From the NCBI GenBank assembly GCA_018830645.1, contig JAHJSA010000076.1:1-64000 (forward strand): a stretch of DNA of 64,000 nt, in the 5' to 3' direction. This DNA is from Actinomycetota bacterium (GTDB lineage: Bacteria > Actinomycetota > Thermoleophilia > RBG-16-64-13). Within the stretch, counting starts at the first letter, position 1. Each line of letters opens with the position of its first letter. Made by a program: the position numbers and the translations under genes. Shown here piece by piece: positions 9,425-56,635 of this stretch. The notes below the pieces were generated by a model, which searched no databases, was not told the DNA's origin, and saw only the letters and a program-made list of their open reading frames with translations.

Positions 9425-11485
9425 ATGACAGCGGCACTCAAACTCACACGCCGGCGCCTGCTGGCCATGGTCATCGACGCGATCATCATCGTGATCGCGT
9501 ACTACGCGACCCTCGCCTTCCGCTTCGCCGGGCGCATCCCCGAGGACATCTCCTTCACGAGCCGCAGTTTCGCGATCTTCGCCGCACTGGCCATCTTCGC
9601 GCACCTCGCCGCTAACTGGGTGGGCTCCGTCTACGCCATCGTCAACCGCTACGTGGGCCTGCCCCAAGCGCTGCGCCTGGGCGAAGGGTCGCTCGTGGTG
9701 GTGGCCGTGCTCACCCTGATAGCCCTCGGCTGGCCCACCGGACGGCACCTCCTGCCCCTCTCGGTGGTGATCGTGGGCGGCGTGGGCGCTACCGTGGCCA
9801 TGATCGGCGTGCGCTTCTACGGGCGGGTGTTCCACGAGCGGAGCCTCTCCAACGTGGGTGGCGGCAAGCGACTCCTGCTGGTGGGCTCCGGCCAGGCCGC
9901 CGACATGATCGTGCGCGAGATACACCGCAACCCCGCCCTGCGCGTCCACGTGGTGGGTCTGGTGGACGACGACCCGTCCCTGTGGGGCATGCGCCTGCAC
10001 AACCACCCCGTGCTGGGTGCCGTGGAAGACGTTCCCCGGCTGGTCGCCACGCACGAGGTGAACGAGGTGCTCGTGTGCATCCCCTCAGCTACGCCCGAGC
10101 AGATGACCCGCATCTACCGGCAGGCCAAACTCGCGCGGGTGCCCATCAAGACGCTGCCGAACCTCACCGAGCTGGTCGACGGCACCGCGAGCCTCGCCGA
10201 CGCCCGCGCGCTCGACATCGAAGACCTCCTCGGCCGGCCCAAAGCGCAGACCGACCTGGCCGACATCACCGCCTACCTGCGCGGCCGCCGTGTGCTGGTG
10301 ACGGGAGCCGGGGGCTCCATCGGCTCCGAACTTGTGCGCCAGATCGCGGGCTTCCTGCCCGCTGAACTGGTGCTGGTCGACCGCGACGAGTCCGCCCTCT
10401 ACGACCTGCACGAGCAACTCCGGGTGTCGGGCTTCCACGCCTACGCACTGGTGCCGGCGAGCATCCTGGGGCAGGCGAAGATGGAGCAGGTGTTCGCCGA
10501 GCATCGCCCTGAGGTGGTGTTCCACGCCGCCGCTTTCAAGCACGTGCCGCTCATGGAGCTCCACCCCGACCAGGCCGTGCTCAACAACGTCAAGGGCACG
10601 CTCATGGTGGCCGAGGCGGCGGCGCAGGCGGGGGCGGAACGGTTCGTGAACATCTCCACCGACAAGGCCGTCGACCCGGTGAACGTGATGGGCGCCACAA
10701 AGCGGGTGGGCGAGCACGTGCTCCACCACCTGGCCCCGCGCTACCCGAAGACGCGCTTCGTCTCGGTGAGGTTCGGCAACGTGCTCGGCAGCAGGGGCAG
10801 CGTGATCCCCATCTTCCGCCGCCAGATCGAGGCGGGCGGGCCGGTCACCATCACCCACCCCGAGATGACCCGCTACTTCATGATGATCGAGGAGGCGGTG
10901 CAGTTGGTACTGCAGGCCGCCGCCCTCGACGACCTTCCCAACGACGTCGGCGCCCAGGGCGCCCAGGGACACCACGGCACCCTGATACTCGAGATGGGTG
11001 AGCCCGTGCCGATCATGGACCTGGCCCGCAAGATGATCGACCTCATGGCCAACGGCCGCGCCGACGCCATCGACATCGACATCACCGGCCTGCGGCCCGG
11101 GGAGAAGCTGCACGAGAACCTGGTGTGCCGCGGCGAGCGCACCTCGCCCACGAAACACCCGCTCATCAGACTGGCCCGCTTCTGCCGGGACGACGCATGC
11201 CCCGAGTCGCCCGCCTTACCACCCGGCTTCGCACGCGATCTCGAGAGGTTGATCGCGCTGGCCGAGCGGCACGCCTCCCCGGAGGAACTCGTAGCGGCCC
11301 TACAGGCCTGCGTCCCCACCTACGAGCCCTTCGATTGGGACGGCGTGGGCACCTTCCCCGGTGCGCGCCCGGCCCGCGAGGAAGGCGCCGAGGGTGCCGC
11401 TCATCGACCGTCCGCCGGTCCGATGGTGCCATTTCCCTTAGAAGATATGGCCCGACAAGGGTTTACACGGGCCGACGGCGTATAG
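9425..11485 (+). CDS. Membrane NDP-sugar 4,6-dehydratase (CapD/WbpM/PglF type)
   Basis: 686 residues from ATG 9425 (GGGAGGT upstream). Four N-terminal membrane helices (about 10-120) precede a first Rossmann motif KRLLLVGSGQAADMI and the catalytic SDR domain, with VLVTGAGGSIGSEL for NAD binding. The active-site stretch is STDKAVDPVNVMGATKR, in which Met replaces the usual SDR Tyr, as in WbpM/PglF. These enzymes convert UDP-GlcNAc to the 4-keto-6-deoxy sugar, the first step to di-N-acetyl-bacillosamine, QuiNAc or FucNAc. It probably supplies a rare sugar to the exopolysaccharide encoded nearby and sits upstream of the small FPFTG gene. Confidence 0.9.
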   Translation: MTAALKLTRRRLLAMVIDAIIIVIAYYATLAFRFAGRIPEDISFTSRSFAIFAALAIFAHLAANWVGSVYAIVNRYVGLPQALRLGEGSLVVVAVLTLIALGWPTGRHLLPLSVVIVGGVGATVAMIGVRFYGRVFHERSLSNVGGGKRLLLVGSGQAADMIVREIHRNPALRVHVVGLVDDDPSLWGMRLHNHPVLGAVEDVPRLVATHEVNEVLVCIPSATPEQMTRIYRQAKLARVPIKTLPNLTELVDGTASLADARALDIEDLLGRPKAQTDLADITAYLRGRRVLVTGAGGSIGSELVRQIAGFLPAELVLVDRDESALYDLHEQLRVSGFHAYALVPASILGQAKMEQVFAEHRPEVVFHAAAFKHVPLMELHPDQAVLNNVKGTLMVAEAAAQAGAERFVNISTDKAVDPVNVMGATKRVGEHVLHHLAPRYPKTRFVSVRFGNVLGSRGSVIPIFRRQIEAGGPVTITHPEMTRYFMMIEEAVQLVLQAAALDDLPNDVGAQGAQGHHGTLILEMGEPVPIMDLARKMIDLMANGRADAIDIDITGLRPGEKLHENLVCRGERTSPTKHPLIRLARFCRDDACPESPALPPGFARDLERLIALAERHASPEELVAALQACVPTYEPFDWDGVGTFPGARPAREEGAEGAAHRPSAGPMVPFPLEDMARQGFTRADGV

Positions 11486-11615: not shown

Positions 11616-11966
11616 ATGGCGAAGAAGATGATTTTGACCGTCGCCCTCGCCCTCGTGGTCGTTCTGGCTCTTGGTGGAGTAGCCCTCGCGGCAACCCCCC
11701 AGGACATCTACAACGACTTCGCGGACAACGGGAAACTCGACGGGAGCTACAGCAAGGCTGAACTCGAGGCTTACCTGGCCGACGCCACGGTGCACCAGTA
11801 CGGCGATCCGTACAATCTGGGTGTCCTGGATACGCTGGTGAAGCAGATGCTCGCTTCGAGCACCACGACTACCTTCCCGTTCACCGGTCTTGAGATCGCT
11901 CTTATCGCCTTTGGCGCAGTCGCGCTGCTTGGCGGAGGGTTGGTACTGCGCAGGTCGGCTGGCTGA
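11616..11966 (+). CDS. Small exported protein with FPFTG sorting-like tail (copy A)
   Basis: 116 residues, ATG 11616 after AGGAGAAGGGAGA. A signal peptide (1-26, ending ALAA) leads to a mature domain with TPQDIYNDFADNGKLDGSYS and AYLADATVHQYGDP. It ends with a Thr run, FPFTG, a hydrophobic helix and RRSAG. That tail has the architecture of a sortase signal (LPXTG-helix-positive charges), with F for L. Copy B at 42917-43318 shares the core PQDIYNDY..DG.LDG.Y and the same tail. Function unknown. Each copy lies between an exopolysaccharide gene and a convergent BY-kinase, suggesting a surface-anchored partner of glycan assembly. Confidence 0.8.
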   Translation: MAKKMILTVALALVVVLALGGVALAATPQDIYNDFADNGKLDGSYSKAELEAYLADATVHQYGDPYNLGVLDTLVKQMLASSTTTTFPFTGLEIALIAFGAVALLGGGLVLRRSAG

Positions 11967-12226: not shown

Positions 12227-13840
12227 TCAGTCCTTGCGGGAGGGGTACGAGCCGTAGCCGTAGCCACGGTAATGGTAGCCTTTGCCGGCCACCACGCCGG
12301 TGGCCACCACGCCGGTGAGACGGGCGTTCGTGCGGCCAAGCACCTTGCGCATCTCGCGGGCCTCGTCGATCGTGGTGTGGTGCATGCGGGCCGAGATCAG
12401 GACCCCGTCCACGTGTCCCGCGAGGATGAGCGCGTCGGCCACGAGCAGACACGGGGGCGAATCTACGATCACGTAGTCGGCCACCTCTGACGCCTTGACG
12501 AGAAGCTCCGCCATCTTGGCCGACGAGATGAGTTCCGACGGGTTCGGGGGCAGCGGCCCCGAGGTCACACAGTACATGTTCTTCTGGAGCAGGCCGCCCT
12601 CGGACTCGTGCCCCCGGCCGCTACGCCGGGCCTCACTCGGCGAGAAGTCGTCCACCCGCACCAGCTGCATGGCTTCGGCCAGTGAGTGGGTGCCGGCCAG
12701 CACGTTCGACACGCCCACGTCGTTCCCGAGCTCCAGGTAGCGATGCACCATGGGGCGGCGCAGGTCGGCCTCCACCACGAGCACGCGCAGGCCGGAGAGG
12801 GCCAGGCTGAGGCCCAAGTTGATCGTGGTGACCGTCTTCCCCTCTTGCGGAAGGGCGCTGGTCACGAGCAACGTACGCAAGGGGCGATCGACCTCGAAGT
12901 ACTGCAGGTTGGAGCGCATCGTGCGGAAGGCCTCGAGGATGGGAGAGTCCAGGCTACCGAACCCGACGGAGGCGGTGGAACGCTTGTCGTCGGGATGGGC
13001 CCACTTCTTGCCGATGCGGGGCACGTGCGCGATCACGGGCAGGCCGAGTTCGCGGGTGAGCGTCTCCTCGTCTTTGATGCGGCGGTCGAGATACTCGAGC
13101 AGGAAGGCGGCGCCCACGCCCAGCACCAGTCCCACCGCCAGGGCAAGGATGCCGTCGCGCAGCGGCTGCGGGTCGAACGGCCCGGTGGGCACGGAAGCCA
13201 ACTGCGTGAGGATGAATCCCCCACTCTGCAACTCCTCGATCACGGCCAGCTCCTCGAGACGTTGCACGAGGAACACCCCGCGGTTGCTGGCGAGCTCCGA
13301 CAGGGTGAGGGCGTTCACCTGCTTCTCGACCACCTGGATCGCCAGGCTGATGGCCTTCTTATCGGACTCGGCTTGGTGGGCGACGTACTCGCGGGCGAAG
13401 GAGTTGGCCAGGGCGGCCGCTTCGTCGGCCGAGGTGCTCGTGGCGGTGACCCGCACGAGGTCGGCGTTGGTGGCAACCACGGCTTCGACCATACCGCCCA
13501 GCTCTTCCGCCGAGAGCGGGGAGTCCAAGGCGTCCTTCACCCGCAGGGCCACCGCTTCGATGTTCACGTTCTGCGCGCTGGTCTCGAGCAGGCGCTTCAC
13601 GTCCTGCGTCTCGAAGACGCGGCTGCCGAACAGCGTGTTGGTGAGGGTGTTGGGGTCGCGGGTGAGCACCGCTGTGGCGCGGTAGCGCGGCGTCCGTGTG
13701 AGCGAGAAGGCCAGGGCTGCCGCCACGACCACGAGCAGGATGGCGGCGACCACCCACTTCCGCTCTCGAAGGACGCGGAGGTAGTCCGCTAGCTCGACGG
13801 GCTCCTCGGTGTCGGTGTAGGTGGTCTCAGGCGTTTCCAT
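12227..13840 (-). CDS. Polysaccharide co-polymerase / BY-kinase (Wzz + CpsD fusion), copy A
   Basis: 537 residues. The N-terminal Wzz domain starts ELADYLRVLRERKWVVAAILLVVVAAALAFSL, a second membrane helix is at about 205-230 (ILALAVGLVLGVGAAFLLEYLDRR), and a cytoplasmic P-loop kinase follows: Walker A SALPQEGKTV (K about 335), Walker A' VEADLRRP, Walker B YVIVDSPP. The C-terminus YHYRGYGYGSYPSRKD is the autophosphorylated tyrosine cluster. BY-kinases control chain length and export of capsule or exopolysaccharide through cycles of Tyr phosphorylation. Copy B is at 44423-46024. The start overlaps the 3' end of cysQ by 52 bp. Confidence 0.92.
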   Translation of the reverse strand: METPETTYTDTEEPVELADYLRVLRERKWVVAAILLVVVAAALAFSLTRTPRYRATAVLTRDPNTLTNTLFGSRVFETQDVKRLLETSAQNVNIEAVALRVKDALDSPLSAEELGGMVEAVVATNADLVRVTATSTSADEAAALANSFAREYVAHQAESDKKAISLAIQVVEKQVNALTLSELASNRGVFLVQRLEELAVIEELQSGGFILTQLASVPTGPFDPQPLRDGILALAVGLVLGVGAAFLLEYLDRRIKDEETLTRELGLPVIAHVPRIGKKWAHPDDKRSTASVGFGSLDSPILEAFRTMRSNLQYFEVDRPLRTLLVTSALPQEGKTVTTINLGLSLALSGLRVLVVEADLRRPMVHRYLELGNDVGVSNVLAGTHSLAEAMQLVRVDDFSPSEARRSGRGHESEGGLLQKNMYCVTSGPLPPNPSELISSAKMAELLVKASEVADYVIVDSPPCLLVADALILAGHVDGVLISARMHHTTIDEAREMRKVLGRTNARLTGVVATGVVAGKGYHYRGYGYGSYPSRKD

Positions 13841-38632: not shown

Positions 38633-40096
38633 ATGACTCAGCGAACAAGCACGCTCACCGACTCCACGAAGACCGACCGGCCCCTACCGCGGCGGATACT
38701 AACCATACTCGATCCTGCTGCCGCCGCCGTGGCGCTCGTGGGCAGCACGTACGCGCTACCGTTGCGCTACGTGCAGGGCACGATGCCCCGCGTAGCCCAC
38801 ATCATCACTTTGGTTCTCCTCGGTCTTGTGCTGATGCTGCTCCTGTTCCGAGATGACCAGTACACGGCCCGCAGGCGCATGACGCGACTGGCCGACTTCG
38901 GCTCCGTAGCGAAGAACCTTGCTCTGGCCTACATGGTGGTCATCGCGGCCTCCTTCGCCACCAAGGGGTTCTTCACCGGGTACGTGGCGCTGTCGAGGCT
39001 CGTGATCCTGGTGCACCTGTTCGTCCTGCTCGGCCTCATGCTCGCTTCGCGGTACGCGTTGTGGGCCTATCAGACACGACTCTTCCGCGAGGGCGAAGCG
39101 ACCCGCCGCATACTCGTGGTCGGCGGAGGCGGTGCGGCGACCGACCTAGTGGCGTTCCTCGACAAGAGGCAGTGGCTCGGCGTTCACTGTGTGGGCTCCC
39201 TGTGCGTGGGCGAGCGGGGCGACCATCTCCCCACCAGTGACGGACGCCTCGTCCCTCTCGTGGGCACCGTGCGCGAAGTGCGGACGGCACTGACTCAGAC
39301 CGGCGCCGACGAGGTCATCGTCGCGCTCGACAAGAACGAGGCCCAGCATCTCCCCGAGATCACCGATCTCCTCACGGCGGCCGGCGTGCCTTACCAACTC
39401 GTGCCGTCGCTCTTCGAGCAGTCCTACCGCAAAGCCAAGCTCTCCGGCCTCGCCGAGCTGCCCGTGGTCGAGATGGCGGTCGATCCGCTCGACGAGGTGC
39501 AGCGCACCTTCAAGCGCGCGTCGGATCTGGCGATCGTGGTGACTGCGCTGGTCGTGGGATCGCCCTTACTGCTGCTCATCGCCCTCGCTGTCAAGCTCAC
39601 CTCCCCGGGCCCGATACTGTTCCGTCAGGAGCGGGTGGGAGCCAAGGGACGGCACTTCCAGATGCTCAAGTTCCGCACGATGGTGCAGGACGCCGAGGCG
39701 CGGCTCGGGGAGCTGGAGGAAGAGAACGAAGCCGAGGGCCACATCTTCAAGATGAAGTCCGACCCGCGCATCACCTCGGTGGGGAGCTTCCTTCGCCGGT
39801 GGAGCCTCGACGAGATCCCGCAGTTCTTCAACGTGTTGCGGGGCGAGATGAGCGTGGTCGGGCCTCGGCCCCCGCTCCCTCGCGAGGTCGCGGAGTACCA
39901 GACGCCACACTTCGCCCGGCTCAAGGGCCGCCCCGGCATCACCGGTCTCTGGCAAGTATCGGGCAGGAGCGACCTCACCTTTGACGAGATGGTGAAGCTC
40001 GACAGGCACTATCTCGAGAACTGGTCGATCGGCCTCGACCTGACCATCCTCGTGAAGACGATCTATGTGGTGTTCGCCGGGAAGGGCGCGTACTAG
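38633..40096 (+). CDS. Polyprenyl-phosphate sugar-1-phosphate transferase (WbaP/WcaJ type)
   Basis: 487 residues. Four to five N-terminal membrane helices, a Rossmann-like central domain (RILVVGGGGAATDLVAFLDKRQW) and the catalytic bacterial sugar transferase domain: FKRASDLAIVV, SPGPILFRQERVGAKGRHFQMLKFRTM, SLDEIPQFFNVLRGEMSVVGPRPP (catalytic DE dyad), RPGITGLWQVSGRSDLTFDEMVKLD. It starts repeat-unit assembly by placing a sugar phosphate on undecaprenyl phosphate. First gene of the plus-strand part of the second exopolysaccharide locus. Confidence 0.93.
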   Translation: MTQRTSTLTDSTKTDRPLPRRILTILDPAAAAVALVGSTYALPLRYVQGTMPRVAHIITLVLLGLVLMLLLFRDDQYTARRRMTRLADFGSVAKNLALAYMVVIAASFATKGFFTGYVALSRLVILVHLFVLLGLMLASRYALWAYQTRLFREGEATRRILVVGGGGAATDLVAFLDKRQWLGVHCVGSLCVGERGDHLPTSDGRLVPLVGTVREVRTALTQTGADEVIVALDKNEAQHLPEITDLLTAAGVPYQLVPSLFEQSYRKAKLSGLAELPVVEMAVDPLDEVQRTFKRASDLAIVVTALVVGSPLLLLIALAVKLTSPGPILFRQERVGAKGRHFQMLKFRTMVQDAEARLGELEEENEAEGHIFKMKSDPRITSVGSFLRRWSLDEIPQFFNVLRGEMSVVGPRPPLPREVAEYQTPHFARLKGRPGITGLWQVSGRSDLTFDEMVKLDRHYLENWSIGLDLTILVKTIYVVFAGKGAY

Positions 40097-40169: not shown

Positions 40170-42770
40170 GTGAACGGAGCCGCATACCAGCGATCGGGCG
40201 CCACGCCCTCCTCGCCCCGCGAGCGCGTACTCAACGCCGCGCCGATCGCCGGTCTGGTGGGCGTATGGCTCCTCCTGGCCTTCTCGTACGGGGGATTCCA
40301 ACACAGGCAGTGGCTCCTGCCGGGGCTGGGCGTCGCGCTCTTCGGGCTGGTGGCCGGTCTTTCGGCCGGGTACCCGCGGCGGCCGCGGGAGCTCTCTCTT
40401 GCGGTGTTGGGGGCGTTCGCCCTCTACGTGGTGTGGGTGGGCGCGTCGTTCTTCTGGGCGGACTCACGCGATGCAGCCTTCGAAGAGGCCGGGCGGTCCG
40501 CGCTGTATCTCGTGGTACTGGCGTTGGCCCTCACGTACCTCACCGACAGGAACGCCCGGCGGGTGTTCCGCTATCTCGTGCTCCTCGGGGGACTGGCGAT
40601 CGTCGGACTCGTGTCGTACCGGCTGTTGACCGTCGACGCTGCGGGCATCGGACTCCTCTTCACCGGCGGCAACCGTTTCAGCTATCCGGTGAGCTACCCA
40701 AACAACGCGGCCGCCCTCTTCCTCGTGCTCTTCTGGCCGCTCGTGTCGCTCGCCTCCGACCGCGCCGAGTTCGCGCCCGTCCGAGGCCTGGCGCTGGGAG
40801 CCGCCTCCGGCCTCATCTGTCTTGCCGCGCTCCCCCAATCACGGGGAGCGCTCTATGCCCTGATCATCACAACGATCCTGATGTTCGTGCTGTCCCCCAC
40901 CCGTCTGCGTACGCTCGTGTTCCTGCTGACGCCCGTCGCTCTGCTGGTGTGGGCGTTCCCCGACCTCAACCAGTATTGGGTGCGGGGGGCCGAAGAGATG
41001 GGGGGCATGACGGCTGCCCGCATCGTCCTGATCGCCGTCGCCGTGGCGACCGGCGTGGGCCTCGTGCTGGCGATCCTGGAGCGATGGGTGCATGTGAGCG
41101 GCCGGATGAAGGCGGTCTTCGGCACGATCGCCGTGCTGGTGACCGTGGCTTCGCTGTTCGTGGGCTACCAGGCATTCGAGCGCCGGGTGGGCGAACCTCG
41201 AGAGTGGCTGAGCGCCACATGGGAGCGTTTCACGGCCGACCAGATCACCACGCTGTCCGGAACGAGCGATTCGATGCGGGCGGCCGAGGCCTCGTCGCGG
41301 CTGGCGGTCCTGTCCACGAGCGGACGCTGGGACCTCTGGCGGGTTGCCTGGAGAGCGTTCGAGGCGGAGCCAGTCACGGGGGTGGGAGCCGGCAACTACA
41401 TGTACTACCACGATGAGTGGCGCAGGAACAAGAACGCCAAGGTCAGGCAGCCGCACAGCATCGAACTCAGGGTGCTCTCGGAGACCGGGGCGGTGGGTGC
41501 CGCGCTTCTCTTCGGGGCGTTCGCACTGGGTGCGGGCGGCATCCTCTGGGCCCGCTATTCGGCCGCATGGCAGGGAGCCAGGCACACGTGGCTCCGGCGG
41601 AGAGACCGGCGCTCGCCCGACGACTCCCGTCCAAACGACGCCGTCCGCGGGCCCGACGTGGAGTTCCTGGGTGGACGTTGGGGCCTCGACTCCTCCGAAT
41701 ACGCCTGGGAGGTAGCGCTGCTCATGGGCTTCGCGTACTGGCTGGTGCACGGCAGCGTGGAGTGGCTCTGGCACATGCCCGGTGTCGCGATGGTCGCGCT
41801 TCTGTTGTTCGCGGCAAGTGTCGCTTCGATCGACGCGCGGGCGGGCGTCATGTGGCCCCGTTGGGCGGCTCTCATCGGCCGAGGCGGCTCGACGCACCGC
41901 GCCGCGAACCAGCCCCCAGATGGTGACTCCGGCGAGGACGACCCCGCCGACGACGACCCCACTGAGGATGAAGACCTGGCCGCGCCGGCCGACAGGACGG
42001 GCAGTCAGGGCATGGGCGCTTTGGGGACGATACCGCTCTACGCGGATGCCCCCTTCACCGGGTACCGGCGCGCAGACCGGCACCGCGACAAGCGGAACAG
42101 TAAGGACCGCCGCTCCGAGCGACGATCGACCCGCCGCGGTGGTGGCTCCAGCTCACTCTGGCCTCCCGGGCCGCTTTCCGTATGGTTCCGGGGGTGCCTG
42201 ATCGCGGGGTCGCTGGCGGCGCTTGCGGTGCTCACACCCCAGTACCTGTCCCTGCGTTACCAGGATCTCGCTCTGGCGAACTCGTCGGCAGACAGCGCCG
42301 CCGCCCTCGGAGCCGCGGCCACGGCGGCGCGGCTTCTTCCCATCTCACCAGCTCCGCTCACCACCACAGCCGACGTCTACGAGACGGCCGGCCGCCTGGC
42401 CGACGCCGATCGCCCCGCGGGTCAGGGGGCACGGCTCGACGCTCTCGCTCTGACCCTCGACGCGAGGGAGAGCGCGGTCGAACTTGACCCCTTAGCGTGG
42501 GCCCTCCACTTCAAGGCGGCGCTGGCGGCACTCCGGCTGGCCGAGGCTCTCGAAGAAGGAAACGTGGCGACCGAAGCCGGCAGCACCTCCGACTCCCCCG
42601 CACTCACCCCGGAAGCGGTGGCCACCGCGGCGCACCTACGCGATCTCTCCCCTGAAGAACTACGGGAGTCGGCCCGTGCGCACCTCACCACGGCCCAGGA
42701 ACGCAATCCTCTGAATGCCCAAGTGGCACGAACGCTCCTCGAACTCGACGAGCAGGCCACCATCCCCTAG
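40170..42770 (+). CDS. O-antigen ligase/polymerase with C-terminal repeat domain
   Basis: 866 residues, GTG start. 10-12 membrane helices with the ligase loop GRWDLWRVAWRAFEAEPVTGVGAGNYMYYHDEW (Wzy_C signature, about 390-425). A long acidic, then basic, disordered linker (about 570-665) contains DDPADDDPTEDED. One more membrane helix (about 675-695) leads to an extracytoplasmic helical, TPR-like domain (YETAGRLADADR, LDPLAWALHFKAALAALRLAEAL). It joins or polymerises lipid-linked glycan repeats. The extra domain may bind the growing chain or a partner such as the small FPFTG protein downstream. Confidence 0.85.
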   Translation: MNGAAYQRSGATPSSPRERVLNAAPIAGLVGVWLLLAFSYGGFQHRQWLLPGLGVALFGLVAGLSAGYPRRPRELSLAVLGAFALYVVWVGASFFWADSRDAAFEEAGRSALYLVVLALALTYLTDRNARRVFRYLVLLGGLAIVGLVSYRLLTVDAAGIGLLFTGGNRFSYPVSYPNNAAALFLVLFWPLVSLASDRAEFAPVRGLALGAASGLICLAALPQSRGALYALIITTILMFVLSPTRLRTLVFLLTPVALLVWAFPDLNQYWVRGAEEMGGMTAARIVLIAVAVATGVGLVLAILERWVHVSGRMKAVFGTIAVLVTVASLFVGYQAFERRVGEPREWLSATWERFTADQITTLSGTSDSMRAAEASSRLAVLSTSGRWDLWRVAWRAFEAEPVTGVGAGNYMYYHDEWRRNKNAKVRQPHSIELRVLSETGAVGAALLFGAFALGAGGILWARYSAAWQGARHTWLRRRDRRSPDDSRPNDAVRGPDVEFLGGRWGLDSSEYAWEVALLMGFAYWLVHGSVEWLWHMPGVAMVALLLFAASVASIDARAGVMWPRWAALIGRGGSTHRAANQPPDGDSGEDDPADDDPTEDEDLAAPADRTGSQGMGALGTIPLYADAPFTGYRRADRHRDKRNSKDRRSERRSTRRGGGSSSLWPPGPLSVWFRGCLIAGSLAALAVLTPQYLSLRYQDLALANSSADSAAALGAAATAARLLPISPAPLTTTADVYETAGRLADADRPAGQGARLDALALTLDARESAVELDPLAWALHFKAALAALRLAEALEEGNVATEAGSTSDSPALTPEAVATAAHLRDLSPEELRESARAHLTTAQERNPLNAQVARTLLELDEQATIP

Positions 42771-42916
42771 ATCGGAGCCGGCGCGGGAGGAACACAGCCC
42801 CAGGATCGGAGCCCCGACGGTGGATCCGCCCCCCGATATCGACCCCACACGGCTGTATCCACTCGGGTGCACGTAGTATGATTATGAGGGACATACCATC
42901 GAGCAAAGGAGGACGC

Positions 42917-43318
42917 ATGCATAGGAAGATCGTCGCCATTCTGGTGCTTGCGGCGGCGGGTCTGCTCATGCTCGCGTCTGCGGCCCCCGCCGCCTCGCCT
43001 CAAGACATCTACAACGACTACGTCACCGACGGCAGACTCGACGGCCCGTACACCCAGACAGAGATCGACGCCTACCTGAACGACGCCACCGTGCGACAGT
43101 ACGGAGATGTAGGCACGCTGGGTTCGCTCGACGCTCTTCTGAAGGGGGCTCTGCCCTACCTCGAATCGGGCGACACCCTCTCCGATGCACTGGCCAAGGC
43201 TGCGGCCGGTGAACAGAGCGGGCGAAGCCGCTTCCCGTTCACGGGCCTGCCTCTGGCCGCCCTCGCCCTCGGGGTGCTCGGCGTCGTAGGTGGGATGGCA
43301 CTGCGCCGGCCCGCCTAA
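42917..43318 (+). CDS. Small exported protein with FPFTG sorting-like tail (copy B)
   Basis: 133 residues, AAAGGAGG before ATG 42917, and TAGTAT at about 42875 as a -10. A signal peptide (to about residue 27, ending APAA) is followed by SPQDIYNDYVTDGRLDGPYT and AYLNDATVRQYGDV, closely matching copy A (11616-11966). It then has a longer helical stretch than copy A (LLKGALPYLESGDTLSDALAK) and SRFPFTGLPLAALALGVLGV plus RRPA, again a sortase-like sorting signal with F for L. Function unknown; probably wall- or membrane-anchored. Confidence 0.8.
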   Translation: MHRKIVAILVLAAAGLLMLASAAPAASPQDIYNDYVTDGRLDGPYTQTEIDAYLNDATVRQYGDVGTLGSLDALLKGALPYLESGDTLSDALAKAAAGEQSGRSRFPFTGLPLAALALGVLGVVGGMALRRPA

Positions 43319-43396: not shown

Positions 43397-43864
43397 TCAG
43401 CTCAGCGCCAAAGCAGCGAGCACCAGCCCCACTACTACCATCGCCCCGCCCGCGAACCTGATCCACAGCGCCGGCCGGTATTCCTCTGCGCCGCGCGCTC
43501 CCCATGGTTTCGCCCACGGACGACTCGTGACGGCCGACGGGGCCGTCCTCGGCAGGGCCCCAGGAATGCGCTCTAGAAGCGGGCACGGCTCCAGATCGAG
43601 GAACACGGCGTAACGCGCCACCATGCCGGGCGCGTAGGAACCGGAACCAGGTAGACGGTCGAACCGGCCCTCCTCCATGGCGGCGACGAAATCCGCGCGC
43701 ATGCCGAGGATCGCCCCTACCTGCGTGAGTTCATAGCCTCGACTGACCCGCGCCGCTTTCAGAACAGACCCCGCGTCGCCAAAATGGGAGAGGGCCTCGT
43801 GCGTACGTGTGGCGCGTTCCTGGGCGCCGGGTCGGGCCTCCTCCGCCGGCGACGGCACCACCAC
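43397..43864 (-). CDS. RodZ-like HTH protein with C-terminal membrane helix
   Basis: 155 residues. Cytoplasmic HTH_25-type domain (GSVLKAARVSRGYELTQVGAILGMRADFVAAMEEGRFDRLPGSGSYAPGMVARYAVFLDLE, about 32-92), a short linker, and a terminal membrane helix (IRFAGGAMVVVGLVLAALALS) with nothing beyond it. RodZ-type HTH domains bind cytoskeletal or membrane partners more than DNA. First of four such proteins around the BY-kinase. Confidence 0.72.
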   Translation of the reverse strand: MVVPSPAEEARPGAQERATRTHEALSHFGDAGSVLKAARVSRGYELTQVGAILGMRADFVAAMEEGRFDRLPGSGSYAPGMVARYAVFLDLEPCPLLERIPGALPRTAPSAVTSRPWAKPWGARGAEEYRPALWIRFAGGAMVVVGLVLAALALS

Positions 43865-43875
43865 GGCACAGATCC

Positions 43876-44439
43876 TCAGAGTATCTGCGGATAGAGGGAG
43901 ATCAGGCTCAACAGCACCCCCACCAGCAAGAAGAGCACGCCGAACCTGCGCAGACGAAGACCGGTGTCGATCTCCGGCACCGGATGACCGAACGCCAGGG
44001 CGACCGCGCGGGCCTGCCGGCTCTCGTCGAACAACAGGGGAGCACGCGAACGCGACTCGAACTGAGCCACGGGAATGGGCGGCTCGTCGCGATCGTCATC
44101 GTAGCTCCAGCCGGCGAACCAGTCCTCGATCACTTGTACGTCGAGCCCGAGCACCTCGGCGTACTCGGCCGTCAGCTTCATAGCGCGGTTCGACCCGAGC
44201 ACCCGCCCCCCCTGGTCGGTCTCTACGGCTTCGATGTACTCGACCCGCACGCCCAGGACCGCGGAGATATCCTCGAGGTCAAGCAGGCGGCCGACGCGCA
44301 CGTCGCGCAGAACGGGTCCGGCAGAGCCACGGCTCATCAGGGCGGCCCTCAGCCGGCCGGCGCCCACCTCCTGCCGGTCTACCCGGTCTGAGAACCGCCT
44401 CGCACCCGAGAGCTCCCGGCTCTCACTTCTGAGCGCCAT
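43876..44439 (-). CDS. RodZ-like HTH protein with C-terminal membrane helix
   Basis: 187 residues from ATG 44439, which lies inside the last codons of the BY-kinase gene (17-bp overlap), so translation is probably coupled. An HTH-like domain (VRVGRLLDLEDISAVLGVRVEYIEAVETDQGG...MKLTAEYAEVLGLDVQVIEDWF) precedes a membrane helix (RRFGVLFLLVGVLLSLISL) at the very end. No extracellular part. The overlap with the kinase suggests a partner or regulator of it. Confidence 0.7.
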   Translation of the reverse strand: MALRSESRELSGARRFSDRVDRQEVGAGRLRAALMSRGSAGPVLRDVRVGRLLDLEDISAVLGVRVEYIEAVETDQGGRVLGSNRAMKLTAEYAEVLGLDVQVIEDWFAGWSYDDDRDEPPIPVAQFESRSRAPLLFDESRQARAVALAFGHPVPEIDTGLRLRRFGVLFLLVGVLLSLISLYPQIL

Positions 44440-46024
44440 CGGAAACACCGTACCCGTAGCCGTAGTAGTAGCCCTTGCTGCGCGAGACGCCGCTCGCGAT
44501 CGCACCGATCACCCGAGCACTCGTGCGCTCGAGAGCCCGGCGTACCTCCCGAGCTTCATCTACCCTGCTGTGGCCGATGTGGGACGAGATGATCACGCCG
44601 TCCGCGAGACCGGCCAGACTGAGCCCGTCGGCCACCAGCAGGAGCGGCGGGGAGTCCACCAGCACGTAGTCGGCTATCTCCTTGGCGCTCTCGAGCAGCT
44701 CGGCCATCTTGCCGGAAGCTATCAGCTCGGTGGGGTTGGGAGGAATCGGCCCCGAGGTGACGCAGTACATGTTCTTCTGCAGGACCCGCGACCCAGGTCT
44801 GCCGGCCCCGGAGTGCGGCGGAGCGAAGCTCTCCACCCGCACGAGCTGTACGGCCTCGGAGAAGGTGTGCGTCCCCGCCAGGACGTTCGACACGCCCATG
44901 TCGTTACTCAGCTGCAGGTAGTTGTGCAGCATGGGCCGTCGTAGGTCGGACTCGATGAGCACCACTCTGGACCCCGATAGCGCGAGGCTGAGCCCCAGGT
45001 TGATACTGGTGACCGACTTGCCCTCCCGAGGAAGCGCGCTGGTGATCAGAATGGACCGGAGAGGCTTGTCCACCTGGAAATACTGGAGGTTGGAGCGAAG
45101 CGTGCGGAAGGCCTCGAGCGTGGGGGAATCGGCCTCCATGAACCCGATCGGCACTGCCGAGCGGCGCTTGTCCTCCTTGACCCACTTGGCCTTTCCCACC
45201 TGCGGCACGCGGGCCAGGACGGGGACTCCCAGGACCTCCGCGAGGGTGTCTTCGTCTTTGATGCGCCGATCGAGGTACTCGAGCAGCAGGGCGGCGGCGA
45301 CGCCGGCCACTAGCCCCACGAGGAGCGCGAGAGCGCTGTTGCGCACGGGGCGGGGGCTGAACGGCTGCTCCGGCACCGAAGCCCTCTGCACGATCTCGAA
45401 GCCACCGGTCTGCAAGGCTTCCAGGATCTGGAGCTCCTTGAGCTTATCGGTGAGAATCAGTCCACGCCCGGAGTCTCTCTCGGCCAGGGGAAGACCCTGG
45501 ATCTCCTGCTCGACCAACGCACTGGCCTCCGCCACAGCGCGGCGATCTGCGGTCCGCCGTGATTCGACGAACTGCTCCGCGAACGCGTCGGCGATCTGCG
45601 CCGCCTCAAAGGCCACCGTGCTCGTTGCGGTGATCAGGATGAGGTTGGTCTGGGTCTGCGGCCGCACCTCGATCATGCCGAGTATCGCCCGGTCGCTGTA
45701 GGACACGCCCAGTTCGCGACGGACCGCCTCAGCCACCACCTTGAGTCGCACGAGTCCGGCCCCGGTCTGCAGTTCCCGGTTGACGTCGCGCACGTCGAAC
45801 ACCTGCGAACCGGTCAACGCCTGTTCGAGCTTCGAGACCTTGTACAGCAGCTGGGAGCTCGCGCGGTACTTCGGTGTGGTGAGGAGCGAAAAGGCCAGCA
45901 CGACGGCCACAAAGGCAGCCGCCACGATGAGGATGAACCACAGGCGTTCCCGGATGACCCGGATGAACACGCCGAGATCGATGGTCTCCTGTTGGCCTTG
46001 GTTCTGATTCCGTGCTGAATCCAT
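44423..46024 (-). CDS. Polysaccharide co-polymerase / BY-kinase (Wzz + CpsD fusion), copy B
   Basis: 533 residues from ATG 46024. Wzz domain (IDLGVFIRVIRERLWFILIVAAAFVAVVLAFSLL), second membrane helix (ALALLVGLVAGVAAALLLEYLDRR), then the kinase: Walker A TSALPREGKSV (K336), Walker A' ESDLRRPM, Walker B YVLVDSPP. The C-terminal tyrosine cluster is YYYGYGYG. Same architecture and many identical segments as copy A at 12227-13840. Its neighbours here are RodZ-like genes; copy A has none. It regulates chain length and export of the locus polysaccharide. Confidence 0.92.
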   Translation of the reverse strand: MDSARNQNQGQQETIDLGVFIRVIRERLWFILIVAAAFVAVVLAFSLLTTPKYRASSQLLYKVSKLEQALTGSQVFDVRDVNRELQTGAGLVRLKVVAEAVRRELGVSYSDRAILGMIEVRPQTQTNLILITATSTVAFEAAQIADAFAEQFVESRRTADRRAVAEASALVEQEIQGLPLAERDSGRGLILTDKLKELQILEALQTGGFEIVQRASVPEQPFSPRPVRNSALALLVGLVAGVAAALLLEYLDRRIKDEDTLAEVLGVPVLARVPQVGKAKWVKEDKRRSAVPIGFMEADSPTLEAFRTLRSNLQYFQVDKPLRSILITSALPREGKSVTSINLGLSLALSGSRVVLIESDLRRPMLHNYLQLSNDMGVSNVLAGTHTFSEAVQLVRVESFAPPHSGAGRPGSRVLQKNMYCVTSGPIPPNPTELIASGKMAELLESAKEIADYVLVDSPPLLLVADGLSLAGLADGVIISSHIGHSRVDEAREVRRALERTSARVIGAIASGVSRSKGYYYGYGYGVSDGAQK

Positions 46025-46153
46025 AGCCGCCAAGTCTAGTGCACCGGAGCGGCTCGGACAAGCACCCCAAGGAGTCGTGCCTCTTGCTCCTGCTGGCCAC
46101 CTCGAAATACACACGCCGGCGTGGTCGCGCCGGCGAGCGATCGGCCGCCCGGA

Positions 46154-47665
46154 TCAGCCCCGCTGCTCGATCCCCGACGACGTGATGCGCCACTTGAAGG
46201 CCAGCGGGGGAGCGACCGTCTGCCCGTCTACCGTCACCGCGACCGCCTCCGGCCTGCCGATGACCGCGTTCACCGGACCCTCCACCTTCACATCCAACGA
46301 CCCGCCCTTCGCGACGACACCCGCGTGCAGCACGCGCCCGGTGTCGACGGCGGTCAGCTCGACCCACACGTCGGCAGTGGTCGCCCGCAGGACGAGGGCG
46401 AAGCTGGCGGTCGGTGACGTCGTGGAGGTGGTCGCCGGTGTCGTGGTCGAGGTGGTGGTTGATGAAGCCGTCGTGGTGGTGGTGCCGGCTGGAGAGGCGG
46501 CGGCGCCCAAACCGGTGGTGGTGGTGGCGGAGAGTATCGTCGACTGGGTGGATGAGACCACCGTCGCCGCCGCGGCGGCGGACGTGACGGAGGAACTGGA
46601 CGACACAGGCGGCACGGTCGGCACGGTCGTGGTGGACGACCCCGCGGCCTGAAGGGTCATGGTGGTCGCCTCGTCGTCTCCGCCGAAGAGCCCCAGGAAG
46701 CCGAATTGCTGCGCGCCGAACAGCCCCACAACGACCAGGATGACCGCGAGGGGCGGAACAACCCAGGCGCGCGAGAGCCGCGGCGCGAAGCGTCGGTCGC
46801 CCTGGGCGCGCGTATCGTTGGCGACGATGGGGCGCGTCTGGGTCACAGCCGCGTCGAGCGCGGCCGCCCGGCGGGCCACGGCGCGCGCCTTGTTGCGTGC
46901 CACCCGCGACTCGGGCATGGTCGAGGCGGCATCCCTGTTTGCCACAGGCTGCCGCCCGTTCTCGGGCGGAGCCGATATGCGTTCCAGATCGGCGAGGAGG
47001 GCCTCGACGGCGGATTGGGCGGAATCGGCGGGCTTGGATGCCCGGAGCTCTGCGGACTCCGGCGATCGCGACTCCGGCGATCGCGACTCCGGCGATCGCG
47101 ACCCCGGCGATCGCGACCACCGTCCACCCTCCGGGATGTCCAGGCGGGTCGGGGGACTGTCTTCCGCGAGCCACGCCGGCAGCGAGCCGTTCCCGAGGGA
47201 CGAGCGTCCCCAGCCTGGAGCCGCTTCCGGAACGCTCGGCGGTTCCGAAACAGGCGGAGGCGGCGGTGCGACAGCGGGGGCCGACAGCGCGGCAGCGGGC
47301 TCCCGAGGAGGATCGGTCTTCGCCGAGGAGGCCGCCGGGGGTGAGCCGTGTCTCTTGACCGAGGAACCCGCCGATGCTCCCGGGGCGCTATTCGGTGAAG
47401 AGATAGACGCCGGTTCACGCGCGGCCCGCAGCAGCACATCATCAGGATCGATATCGAGGTGGAGGGCATACCGCACCACCATGCTCTCGACATACGTGGG
47501 CCCGAAGAAACGGCTGAGCTCACCACGCTCAAGAGCCTCCAGATACCCGGTGCGGATACCGAGTACGGCAGCCACGTCGTCCAGCGACCGACCCGCCTCG
47601 TTCCTCGACCGTCTCAGCCACTCGCCTACCGCAGGGAGCCCCTGAGTCTCAACGATTCCGTTCAT
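46154..47665 (-). CDS. RodZ-like protein with Thr/Ser stalk and DUF4115-like C-terminal domain
   Basis: 503 residues from ATG 47665 (AGAGGAAG upstream). HTH_25 domain (VGEWLRRSRNEAGRSLDDVAAVLGIRTGYLEALERGELSRFFGPTYVESMVVRYALHLDIDPDDVL), a long Pro/Ser-rich linker with RSPES repeats, a membrane helix (AWVVPPLAVILVVVGLFGAQQF), an extracellular Thr/Ser-rich stalk and a small beta domain (ADVWVELTAVDTGRVLHAGVVAKGGSLDVKVEGPVNAVIGRPEAVAVTVDG) like the DUF4115 domain of RodZ. The stalk could be O-glycosylated. It may link the glycan machinery to cell shape or wall growth. Confidence 0.82.
   Translation of the reverse strand: MNGIVETQGLPAVGEWLRRSRNEAGRSLDDVAAVLGIRTGYLEALERGELSRFFGPTYVESMVVRYALHLDIDPDDVLLRAAREPASISSPNSAPGASAGSSVKRHGSPPAASSAKTDPPREPAAALSAPAVAPPPPPVSEPPSVPEAAPGWGRSSLGNGSLPAWLAEDSPPTRLDIPEGGRWSRSPGSRSPESRSPESRSPESAELRASKPADSAQSAVEALLADLERISAPPENGRQPVANRDAASTMPESRVARNKARAVARRAAALDAAVTQTRPIVANDTRAQGDRRFAPRLSRAWVVPPLAVILVVVGLFGAQQFGFLGLFGGDDEATTMTLQAAGSSTTTVPTVPPVSSSSSVTSAAAAATVVSSTQSTILSATTTTGLGAAASPAGTTTTTASSTTTSTTTPATTSTTSPTASFALVLRATTADVWVELTAVDTGRVLHAGVVAKGGSLDVKVEGPVNAVIGRPEAVAVTVDGQTVAPPLAFKWRITSSGIEQRG
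47055..47114 (-). repeat. Four 15-bp tandem repeats within coding sequence
   Basis: GACTCCGGCGATCGC occurs at 47055, 47070 and 47085, with a near copy at 47100. On the minus strand it encodes repeating Ser-Pro-Glu-Ser-Arg in the linker of the RodZ-like protein. The repeat keeps frame, so copy number can change without loss of the protein. Confidence 0.85.
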
Positions 47666-47797
47666 CGACTCTTCCTCTCGCGACGCCATATCCCGTAACT
47701 GTTCCCGGCCGCGCGTCGCATTCCTTCGCCGAGCGGCACGCGGAGGTGAGCCGTCTCCGATCCGGCGCCGGAGTCATGGAGAAAGGTGCCGCGACCG

Positions 47798-49171
47798 TTA
47801 GCCTGGCGGCTCCGTGTCGATGGTCGTCGAGGGGGTCGATGCGGTGGTCGTCGTGGAGATCGTTGTAGTCGTGGATGTGGTCGTCGTGCTCGTGGTGGTC
47901 GCGACCGTGGTCGACGTCGAGCTGGTGGTCGTAGGCCTTCTCGTGGTGGTGGTGGCGGGCCGCCGCGTGGTGGATGTGGTGGCCGTCGGTCTGGTGGTGC
48001 TCGTGGTGGTCGCGACCGTGGTCGACGTCGAGCTGGTGGTCGTGCCCGTGCTCGGCATCCCCGCTGCCAGCCAGCCGTCGGGGGGTGTCTGCACGGGCGG
48101 GAACCAGGTCACCGGTGGGCCGGAGGAGGTGGTGGACGTGTCCGCCGCGAGCGTGGAACTCGTGCTGATGGGCTGAGCGAGCGTGACGGTGCTCGTAGAA
48201 CCGTCATCGCCACCTATGATCCCGAGGGCACGCGCCCCGAAGAAGCCCACCACCAGCAGGGCGGCGATGAAGGGTGGCACGATCCACCAGCGAGAGAGTC
48301 GGGGCGTCGAACCCCTGGCGCCGCTCTTACTCCGACCGCCGCTCGGACTCTGGGCGCCGCTCTTGCTTCGATCGCCACTGCTCCGCCGGGAGGTGCGGCT
48401 GGCCGCGGAGGCGGCCGACGCCGAGGAGGCCACGGGCTCGCGAAGAGATCGCCGAGTGGGCAAAGACGGGAGCGACTCGAGATCTTCGGGGATCGATACG
48501 TCGGGCGTCAACTCGTCGGGCGTCAACTCGTCGGGCGTCAACTCGTCGGGCGTCAACTCGTCGGGCGTCAACTCGTCGGGCGTCAACTCGTCGGGCGCCG
48601 ACACCTCTGGCACCGATTCCTTCGACGCCGCTCTCTCGGCCACCGATTCCCTCAGGAATCCGGGAATGGACGCCGCCTCGAAGGTTGTCGCGGAGGGCGC
48701 CGGTGGAACCCGCGGTGGAGCCGAGGGAGCCGTCAGTGGCGGTGGAGGCGCCTGCGGAGGCGCCTGTGCGGGCGTCTGTGGCGGAGGAACCTGCGGTGGA
48801 GCCGGGGGAGCTGGCGCGACCTCGGGCACAACGGGAGGCGTGATCGCGGGGGCGTCCTGCGTCTCCGGCGCCCCAGACTCCGCGGGGGGAGCGTCGGCCC
48901 CGGGCTTCTTGATCACCTCGGCATCGACGGCTTCATCGAGCACCCGGTCGGGATCGAGGCCCAAGTGGAGCGCGTACCGCACCACCATGCTCTCCACGTA
49001 CGAGGGGCCCATGAAGCGGTGCAACTCGCCCCTCTCGAGTGAATCGAGGTAGGTGGACCGCACTCCCATGGCCTCGGCGGCCTCGGCCAGGGTCCGTCCA
49101 CTCTCGGTGCGGGCCTGCCGGAGCAGACCGCCTACCAAGGTGAGCCCTCGACCGCCGTCCCCGGCTTGCAT
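47798..49171 (-). CDS. RodZ-like protein with DELTP repeats and Thr/Ser-rich tail
   Basis: 457 residues from ATG 49171 (GTG 49210 is an alternative in frame). HTH_25 domain (VGGLLRQARTESGRTLAEAAEAMGVRSTYLDSLERGELHRFMGPSYVESMVVRYALHLGLDPDRVL), nearly the same as in the neighbouring 46154-47665 protein. A Pro-rich linker with six DELTP repeats, a membrane helix (WWIVPPFIAALLVVGFFGARALG) and an extracellular tail made almost wholly of Thr/Ser follow, without the DUF4115 domain. The tail looks like a mucin-type stalk. Probably a duplicate of its neighbour that lost the terminal domain. Confidence 0.78.
   Translation of the reverse strand: MQAGDGGRGLTLVGGLLRQARTESGRTLAEAAEAMGVRSTYLDSLERGELHRFMGPSYVESMVVRYALHLGLDPDRVLDEAVDAEVIKKPGADAPPAESGAPETQDAPAITPPVVPEVAPAPPAPPQVPPPQTPAQAPPQAPPPPLTAPSAPPRVPPAPSATTFEAASIPGFLRESVAERAASKESVPEVSAPDELTPDELTPDELTPDELTPDELTPDELTPDVSIPEDLESLPSLPTRRSLREPVASSASAASAASRTSRRSSGDRSKSGAQSPSGGRSKSGARGSTPRLSRWWIVPPFIAALLVVGFFGARALGIIGGDDGSTSTVTLAQPISTSSTLAADTSTTSSGPPVTWFPPVQTPPDGWLAAGMPSTGTTTSSTSTTVATTTSTTRPTATTSTTRRPATTTTRRPTTTSSTSTTVATTTSTTTTSTTTTISTTTTASTPSTTIDTEPPG
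48496..48600 (-). repeat. 15-bp tandem repeat encoding DELTP
   Basis: The unit ACTCGTCGGGCGTCA is repeated about six times, with a degenerate first copy, in the linker of the RodZ-like gene. In-frame minisatellite, likely variable between strains. Confidence 0.88.
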
Positions 49172-54340: not shown

Positions 54341-54589
54341 GGCCGGCGAATAAGGCCGGCGAATAGGTCCGGCGGCGCCACTGCGCCACTGCGGCGGGAC
54401 CACGACGGCGCTCCCGAGGCACCGCGGCGGCACCGACGCGACCGCCCGCGACGGCCGCCGAGCGCGCCGGGCGATCGCCCGCCCGGCTTGACCGAGACTC
54501 CCGGCGCGCGATAGGTTGAGACCCGGATCATCGAGCTCCGGGCAACCGGGCTTCTGCGAACGACCGGCCACCACGTCATGGGGGATCTC
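54341..54589. other. Intergenic spacer with short repeats
   Basis: Contains GGCCGGCGAATA twice (about 54341-54367) and very GC-rich sequence. CGATAGGTTGAG near 54510 could hold a weak -10. No gene seen. Confidence 0.35.
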
Positions 54590-56635
54590 ATGCGAACACG
54601 CCCGCTGTGCCACCGCCTTTCCATCCTCGTCATGGGCCTTCTGGCCTTCCTCGCGGCGACACCGGCCCTCGCCTCCAGCGGCGGCCTGTCATCCCCGCAG
54701 ACCATCGCCGCCGGCCTCGGTCACACCGTGGTCATCAAGTCTGACGGCTCTCTGTGGGCCTGGGGCCGCAACGACAGCGGTCGCCTCGGCACCGGGGACA
54801 CGACGCAGCATCTCTCCCCCATCCGCATCGGTACGGACACCGACTGGCGCAGCATCGCCGCCGGCGGCGCACATACTCTGGCCTTGAAGGCCGACGGCTC
54901 CCTGTGGGTCTGGGGCGAGAACCACTTCGGGCAGCTCGGCACCGGAGACACCGCCCCACTCCTCACCCCCACCCGCATCGGCTCGGCCACTGACTGGCGC
55001 AGCATCGCCGGAGGCGGCAACCACACGCTCGCCCTGAAGGCCGACGGCTCCCTGTGGGCCTGGGGTGCGAACTACTTCGGGCAGCTGGGCAGCAACGACA
55101 CCACCCAGCGTCTCGTCCCCTACCGCATCGGTACGGCCACGGACTGGCGCGCGGTCGCCGCCAACGGCATGCACAGCGTGGCCTTGAAAGCCGACGGCTC
55201 CGTCTGGGCGTGGGGCTGGAACGGCAATGGACGGCTCGGCACCGGCGGCACCACCGAGCGTCATGCGCCCGCCCGCATCGGCTCGGCAGTCGACTGGCGC
55301 GCCGTCAGCGCCGGCGGCGCACATACCATGGCCGTCAAGACCGGCGGCGCCCTATGGGCATGGGGATACAACGGGGCCGGAGCGCTCGGCACCGGGGACA
55401 TCGTCGACAGTCTTACTCCAACCGTGGTCGGCGCGGACACCGACTGGCAGAGCGTGGTCGCCGGCGGCGGACACACCGTAGCCCTGAAGACCAACGGTTC
55501 CCTCTGGGCATGGGGCGCCAACGGCAGCGGACAGCTCGGCACGGGCGACACGCTCCAGCAGCTGACCCCGATGCAGATCGGCACAGACGTCGACTGGCTG
55601 GAGATCGCGGCTCCGTTCTACCATAGCCTCGCCTTCAAGGCCGATGGCTCCCTCTGGGCCTGGGGTGAGAACGAGCACGGGCAACTCGGCACGGGGGACA
55701 CCAAGGACGTTCTGGCCCCCGCCAAGATTCTCACCGGAATCCGCCTCCCCACCCTCTACAACGACTTCACCGGCGCCGATCGCTACGAGACCGCCATCAT
55801 GATCTCGAAGAAGGCCTTCCCGGCGGGCGCTCCGGTGGTCTTCCTGGTGAAAGGTGACGACTTCCCCGACGCGTTGGCGGCAGCGCCCCTGGCCCGGGCG
55901 CACGTCGGTCCGGTCGTCATAACGCCGTCCACCGGCCTCACCCCCGCGGTGGTGGCGGAGCTGCAACGCCTCGACCCGGGCACGGTCTTCTTCGTGGGCC
56001 TCGCGGAGTCGGTGAAGCCCGCGCTCGAAGCCGCCTTGCCCACCGCCCAGATCAAGACCATCCGCGGCTCAGACCGCTATCAGACCGCAGTGCTCCTCGC
56101 GGAAGACCTCCGGAAGAAGCTCGGGAAGATAGAGAGGGTCGTGCTCGTGCCGGGGGACAAGTTCCCCGACGCCCTCTCCGTGGCACCGCTGGCGGCGAAG
56201 AGGGGCTGGGCGATCCTTCTCACCCCCCAAGCCGGCCCGCTTCCCAAGGTGACCGCGGACGAGATCAAGGCGCTCGGCGTGAGCCAATGCCTGGTGGTGG
56301 GCACCTGGGTGCTGCCCCCGTCCACGGTCACCGACGCCGTCTTCAAGGTGGGCACCGACCGCTACCACACCGGCGCCCTCGTGGCGGCCTACGCTGAGAC
56401 CATGGGCCTTTCCTTCCGGCACGTGACCCTCGCCACCGGCGATAACTTCCCCGACGCCCTGGTGGTGGCGCCGTATCTGGTCGCCGACGGTGGGATGCTC
56501 CTGCTCGTCCAGAGGACGGCGCTGCCCGCCCCGATCCGAGACATCCTGGCCGCCAACGCGGCCGAGGTGCGCGTGCTCGACTTCGTGGGACTCGGGACGA
56601 CCATCCAGCCGACGGTGAAGGGGATCATCTGGTAG
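54590..56635 (+). CDS. Secreted RCC1-repeat protein with cell wall binding repeats
   Basis: 681 residues from ATG 54590 (GGGGG upstream). Signal peptide to about residue 30 ([10 protein letters not shown]). Seven RCC1-type blades follow (pattern [21 protein letters not shown], about 30-390), then three CWB2 repeats (RYETA...[26 protein letters not shown]...[27 protein letters not shown]...[14 protein letters not shown]). CWB2 modules bind secondary wall polymers, so the propeller is displayed at the cell surface. Partner unknown. Full length, single gene. Confidence 0.92.

Follow-up and report, generated by a model that had tools for sequence, protein, structure and literature searches.

RodZ-like membrane proteins encoded around a BY-kinase gene: candidate adaptors of a polysaccharide assembly complex

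RodZ is known mainly as a partner of MreB, and to our knowledge the placement of BY-kinase/Wzy machines at particular membrane sites is poorly understood. The locus examined here touches both subjects. Within the window (the whole stretch of 64,000 nucleotides that was analysed), a first-pass annotation had recognized four RodZ-like HTH membrane proteins around a BY-kinase and proposed that they form a membrane scaffold linking glycan synthesis to cell shape. Do these proteins act with the cell-shape machinery, with DNA, or with the polysaccharide kinase beside which they are encoded?

Layout of the locus and architecture of its HTH proteins

Open reading frames, Pfam profiles and hydropathy bear out the arrangement described earlier: five minus-strand genes (43397-49171), read in the order HTH4, HTH3, kinase, HTH2, HTH1, place two HTH_25 genes, each encoding one clear membrane helix, on either side of a Wzz-type BY-kinase gene (Table 1). 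About 130 bp separate HTH4 from HTH3 and HTH3 from the kinase gene, and about 11 bp separate HTH2 from HTH1, whose GTG start is uncertain by one or two codons; the 17-bp overlap noticed in the first pass is that of HTH2, between its ATG (44439) and the kinase stop (44423).

Table 1. Features of the kinase locus and related loci, with positions in the window unless a relative's locus is named
Feature	Position	Strand	Remarks
HTH4	47798-49171	-	RodZ-like long protein without RodZ_C; HTH_25 49.7 bits; congener orthologue
HTH4, HTH_25 domain	48941-49126	-	followed by Pro-rich cytosolic linker and one TM
HTH4, PDELT repeats	48500-48600	-	six repeats in cytosolic linker; absent from congener orthologue
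HTH4, exoplasmic tail	47801-48208	-	Thr/Ser-rich
HTH3	46154-47665	-	full RodZ-like architecture; HTH_25 57.3 and RodZ_C 44.1 bits
HTH3, HTH_25 domain	47435-47617	-	followed by disordered linker and TM
HTH3, stalk	~46415-46702	-	Thr/Ser
HTH3, RodZ_C/DUF4115	~46157-46414	-	
Kinase	44423-46024	-	Wzz/GNVR-BY-kinase; polysaccharide co-polymerase with tyrosine autokinase domain
HTH2	43876-44439	-	short tail-anchored HTH_25 protein; 28.1 bits; most diverged HTH
HTH1	43397-43864	-	short tail-anchored HTH_25 protein; 49.0 bits; congener orthologue
Small exported protein	42878-43318	+	C-terminal FPFTG + TM + RR (sortase-like signal); conserved neighbour of BY-kinases
Wzy_C/O-antigen-ligase-like membrane protein	40170-42770	+	polymerase or ligase; PF04932 60.1 bits
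Polyprenyl-phosphate sugar transferase	38633-40096	+	initiating glycosyltransferase; TIGR03025 414.6 bits, above cut-off
RCC1-repeat protein	54578-56635	+	three CWB2 cell-wall-binding repeats; close to the HTH-kinase locus
Second BY-kinase	12227-13840	-	no HTH neighbours
Small FPFTG protein of second BY-kinase	11616-11966	+	
Polysaccharide gene near second BY-kinase	9425-11485		same arrangement in congener (L121)
Peptidase_M23-SLH gene	L039:10631-12679	-	between long and short HTH genes
Peptidase_M23-SLH gene	L040:9237-11315	+	between long and short HTH genes

All four HTH domains exceed the Pfam HTH_25 cut-off of 24.6 bits. In each protein a single membrane helix follows the HTH, on which AlphaFold helices and hydropathy agree, and the charges point to an N-in orientation. 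As had been described, two of the proteins end at this helix: HTH1 and HTH2 stop 0-3 residues past it and are thus tail-anchored, with no exoplasmic part. The other two carry the mucin-like segments first noticed in their composition (Ser and Thr make up 50% of the HTH3 stalk and 57% of the residues after the helix in HTH4), and RodZ_C (DUF4115) is found in HTH3 only. AlphaFold models are confident for the HTH, the TM helix and the beta-rich RodZ_C of HTH3, with disordered linkers, and for a five-helix HTH plus C-terminal TM helix in HTH2.

Measured against a congener, the HTH genes have dN/dS values of 0.25-0.37 and the kinase gene one of 0.10; all four HTH genes are under purifying selection, with the HTH, TM and RodZ_C segments well conserved and the linkers drifting. 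Selection of this kind, together with synteny, rules out chance open reading frames.

The kinase scores 134.6 bits against TIGR01007 (cut-off 108), contains Wzz and GNVR domains by Pfam, and bears the Walker A, A' and B motifs and Tyr-rich tail of BY-kinases of the Wzc/CpsCD type. Its Walker A' motif reads ESDLR, and the Glu, which recurs in three other kinases where the motif was read, stands at a position occupied by Asp in Wzc-type kinases. The small exported protein next to the locus and its counterpart at the second BY-kinase belong to a family with the motif A[ST]PQDIYNDY...YG..., usually encoded beside a BY-kinase (relatives at L038, L039, L040, L042, L043, L108, L112, L116 and L121). 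The protein has no significant Pfam or NCBIfam match; the FPFTG + TM + RR-type tail is present in 12 of 12 inspected members, and sortases occur in 15 of the 18 family genomes searched.

Recurrence beside BY-kinases in relatives

Relatives keep this cluster next to the kinase. In this small family of uncultured actinobacteria, 7 of 18 genomes, from 4 genera, encode a long HTH protein close to a BY-kinase, in most cases together with a short tail-anchored one, and every genome with long-type proteins has the kinase adjacent (7/7). Besides this genome, the congener has all five genes in identical order, three genomes encode a long-short pair of HTH proteins on the same strand as the kinase, and in two a lone long HTH gene lies no more than about 4 kb from the kinase gene. 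The same gene order in an independent congener assembly also rules out an artefact of MAG contamination. RodZ_C is present in seven of the nine long proteins. At a threshold of E <= 1e-16, the long-type profile matched only the seven family genomes among 399 genomes of the class, and only those of the seven that were included in a phylum sample of 396. A GTDB scan with one exact peptide pattern, which could miss diverged members, returned six loci, all in MAGs labelled Actinomycetes, Actinobacteria, Actinomycetota or Thermoleophilia.

Within the family, HTH genes occur at 6 of the 8 kinase loci that have a ligase-type (Wzy_C) gene next to them, compared with none of the 14 others (p = 4e-4, Fisher, over the 22 kinase loci inspected and ignoring kinship between genomes); one of the genomes with a long and short pair was excluded from this count, as its contig breaks off within the kinase gene. 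We conclude that the four-gene set is a genus-level expansion of a simpler long and short pair. Ancestrally there was probably a single long protein accompanied by a single short one; this genus, which has two short ones, would have duplicated the long one, with HTH4 losing RodZ_C. In two genera the long and short HTH genes are separated by a gene on the opposite strand that encodes Peptidase_M23 and SLH domains.

It could be argued that the HTH proteins are envelope-associated and merely share a locus with the kinase, with no functional tie to it, given that the number of HTH genes varies by genus (4, 2 or 1), as does their order, and that M23-SLH, LysR or cytochrome genes intervene in some genera. 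The adjacency to the kinase in all seven genomes, the overlap with the kinase gene, the shared strand and the purifying selection argue against this reading, which we regard as quite unlikely.

Relation to RodZ, MreB and DNA-binding regulators

Seven HTH_25 matches occur in the genome. Outside the four at the kinase locus, the count of RodZ homologues that the first-pass annotation had called for comes to one full-length, canonical RodZ on another contig (HTH, TM and C-terminal domain, 278 aa, 86.5 bits) and two weak partial XRE-type matches. The ordinary rodZ is single in this genome, and the four kinase-linked genes are extra. There is likewise one MreB; a much weaker profile match on a further contig resembles a background match, seen in nearly all the genomes, that we take to be DnaK.

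With MreB and a canonical RodZ both present, and a RodZ-type fold in the HTH proteins, the latter could still bind MreB and in this way tie the assembly of polysaccharide to the elongation machinery, the role first proposed for this locus. The residues that make this contact offer a way to weigh the proposal, since the substitutions Y53A and Y57A in T. maritima RodZ (F60 and Y64 in E. coli) lower MreB binding (PMC6946637). We aligned 16 kinase-linked HTHs, 17 canonical RodZs of the family and three PDB RodZ-type domains on the 2WUS chain. The Tm Y57/Ec Y64 column holds F in 17/17 canonical RodZs and Y or F in the three PDB domains, and a non-aromatic M, I or L in 16/16 kinase-linked HTHs, a loss that may be one ancestral event and hence not 16 independent observations. 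The Tm Y53/Ec F60 column keeps its Y in 14 of the 16 and has R in HTH2 and its orthologue, from which both contact aromatics are gone. In a domain tree built on only 70 columns and with long branches, the 16 kinase-linked HTHs split from the same-family RodZs and PDB domains with support 99/95; within them the long forms cluster (74/92), HTH3 and HTH4 being sisters (95/95).

The loss of the Y57-column aromatic in 16/16 thus weakens the case for a tie to MreB-dependent cell shape, and we consider continued coupling to MreB quite unlikely. Of the scaffold originally proposed, the glycan-synthesis part stands as the most likely reading; the cell-shape part is not supported, the HTH domains grouping apart from RodZ and lacking one of two MreB-binding aromatics throughout. 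The loss of a residue that holds MreB suggests, on sequence grounds, that these RodZ relatives may now serve the sugar-making machine instead.

Could the HTH domains bind DNA? Profile searches matched all four to RodZ-type HTH_25 more significantly than to ordinary DNA-binding regulators, with RodZ-type structures (4gqm, 2wus) ahead of XRE regulators among PDB matches. Structural comparison is less clear-cut: Foldseek places 2wus first for HTH3 with XRE regulators close behind, and for HTH2 DdrO leads by E-value, with RodZ (2wus/3fym) best by query TM-score (0.34-0.35, against mostly 0.27-0.29 for others), so that the modelled fold alone cannot decide between a RodZ-type domain and a DNA-binding XRE regulator. 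Pneumococcal RocS, with a MarR-like HTH and a C-terminal membrane helix, binds DNA and works with CpsD (PMC7022226), and the short forms share this general layout. The proteins might be RocS-like tethers: their membrane-anchored HTHs would contact DNA, either at an operator or without sequence specificity, and would attach the kinase complex to the nucleoid or control the locus; matches of the HTH profiles and folds to ClgR, SinR and DdrO (XRE) at lower significance agree with this. We find it rather unlikely, in that the best family matches are HTH_25/RodZ, RocS itself is MarR-like and not RodZ-like, and the HTH of E. coli RodZ reportedly lacks DNA binding (PMC6946637). The HTH domains are also neutral or acidic (net charge 0 to -6), a property that does not clearly discriminate RodZ from DNA binders, and a search upstream of the operon found no inverted repeats of at least 7 bp. 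The 200 bp upstream are strongly conserved between the congeners, which alone says nothing on what binds there.

Proposed role and comparison with known systems

Taken together, our analysis leads us to suggest, with about even confidence, that these four RodZ-family paralogues have taken on a new task, as membrane adaptors in a polysaccharide assembly complex under BY-kinase control. This reading is supported by the operon-like run and strand shared with the kinase, the conserved pairing, the RodZ-type HTH fold, the single TM and the lost MreB-contact aromatic, as well as by the retention of a canonical rodZ and a single mreB elsewhere in the genome and by the lack of upstream inverted repeats, and it makes the kinase/polymerase complex, rather than the cell-shape machinery, the more likely partner. 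Against it count the kinase tree, in which the HTH-linked kinases do not group as one clade; the contact aromatic that most members keep, by which some MreB binding may persist; and the resemblance of the modelled HTH fold to DNA-binding XRE regulators.

In the adaptor mechanism we envisage, the cytosolic HTH heads would bind the kinase, at its ATPase domain or Tyr-rich tail, or one another. The short tail-anchored forms would serve at the inner membrane face, as clamps or as subunits. The long forms would span the membrane and reach outwards with a disordered stalk, RodZ_C-bearing or not, that senses or holds the growing polymer or the wall, so that the HTH proteins jointly place or gate the Wzz-kinase/Wzy complex. 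More tentatively, and with less confidence than in the adaptor role itself, we hypothesize an MreB-independent, RodZ-derived family in which long adaptors (transmembrane, RodZ_C-bearing) pair with short ones (tail-anchored), and which forms a dedicated part of the BY-kinase complex and sets where or when it works. If true, a RodZ-derived set on a polysaccharide kinase would mean that evolution can redirect the RodZ scaffold to a different envelope polymer; the analysis also singles out a few residues (the Y57 column) and partners that lend themselves to testing.

Our literature search found no description of HTH membrane proteins in a BY-kinase gene run and no paper naming both RodZ and Wzc. 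Among the matches listed, those for RodZ with tyrosine kinase were mostly irrelevant name matches, and titles and abstracts of those for RodZ with exopolysaccharide held nothing on such a pairing.

With the RodZ proteins of E. coli, B. subtilis (YmfM) and T. maritima, those described here have in common the five-helix HTH_25 head, the single TM and the topology, and in HTH3 also RodZ_C. They differ in belonging to a BY-kinase operon, in occurring several to a genome in addition to a separate rodZ, in the lost Tm Y57/Ec Y64 aromatic, and in their outer parts, which are missing from HTH1 and HTH2 and reduced to a Thr/Ser tail in HTH4. RodZ is also kept in cocci without MreB (PMC6946637), and the binding of B. 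subtilis RodZ to SpoIIE (PMC4945075) provides a precedent for a RodZ partner outside the MreB machinery, although SpoIIE is sporulation-specific and the case involves no kinase or polysaccharide locus. Wzc/CpsCD loci likewise encode Wzz, GNVR and kinase domains with a Tyr tail, near a Wzy-like ligase and an initiating sugar transferase; here, in contrast, HTH membrane proteins are encoded in the same gene run. RocS and CpsD of Streptococcus pneumoniae likewise combine a BY-kinase with an HTH protein that has its membrane helix at the C-terminus. RocS, however, joins its MarR-like, DNA-binding HTH to a MinD-like membrane-binding helix, in place of which the present proteins have a RodZ/XRE-type HTH_25 domain and a hydrophobic TM tail anchor, and the likeness between the two systems is one of analogy.
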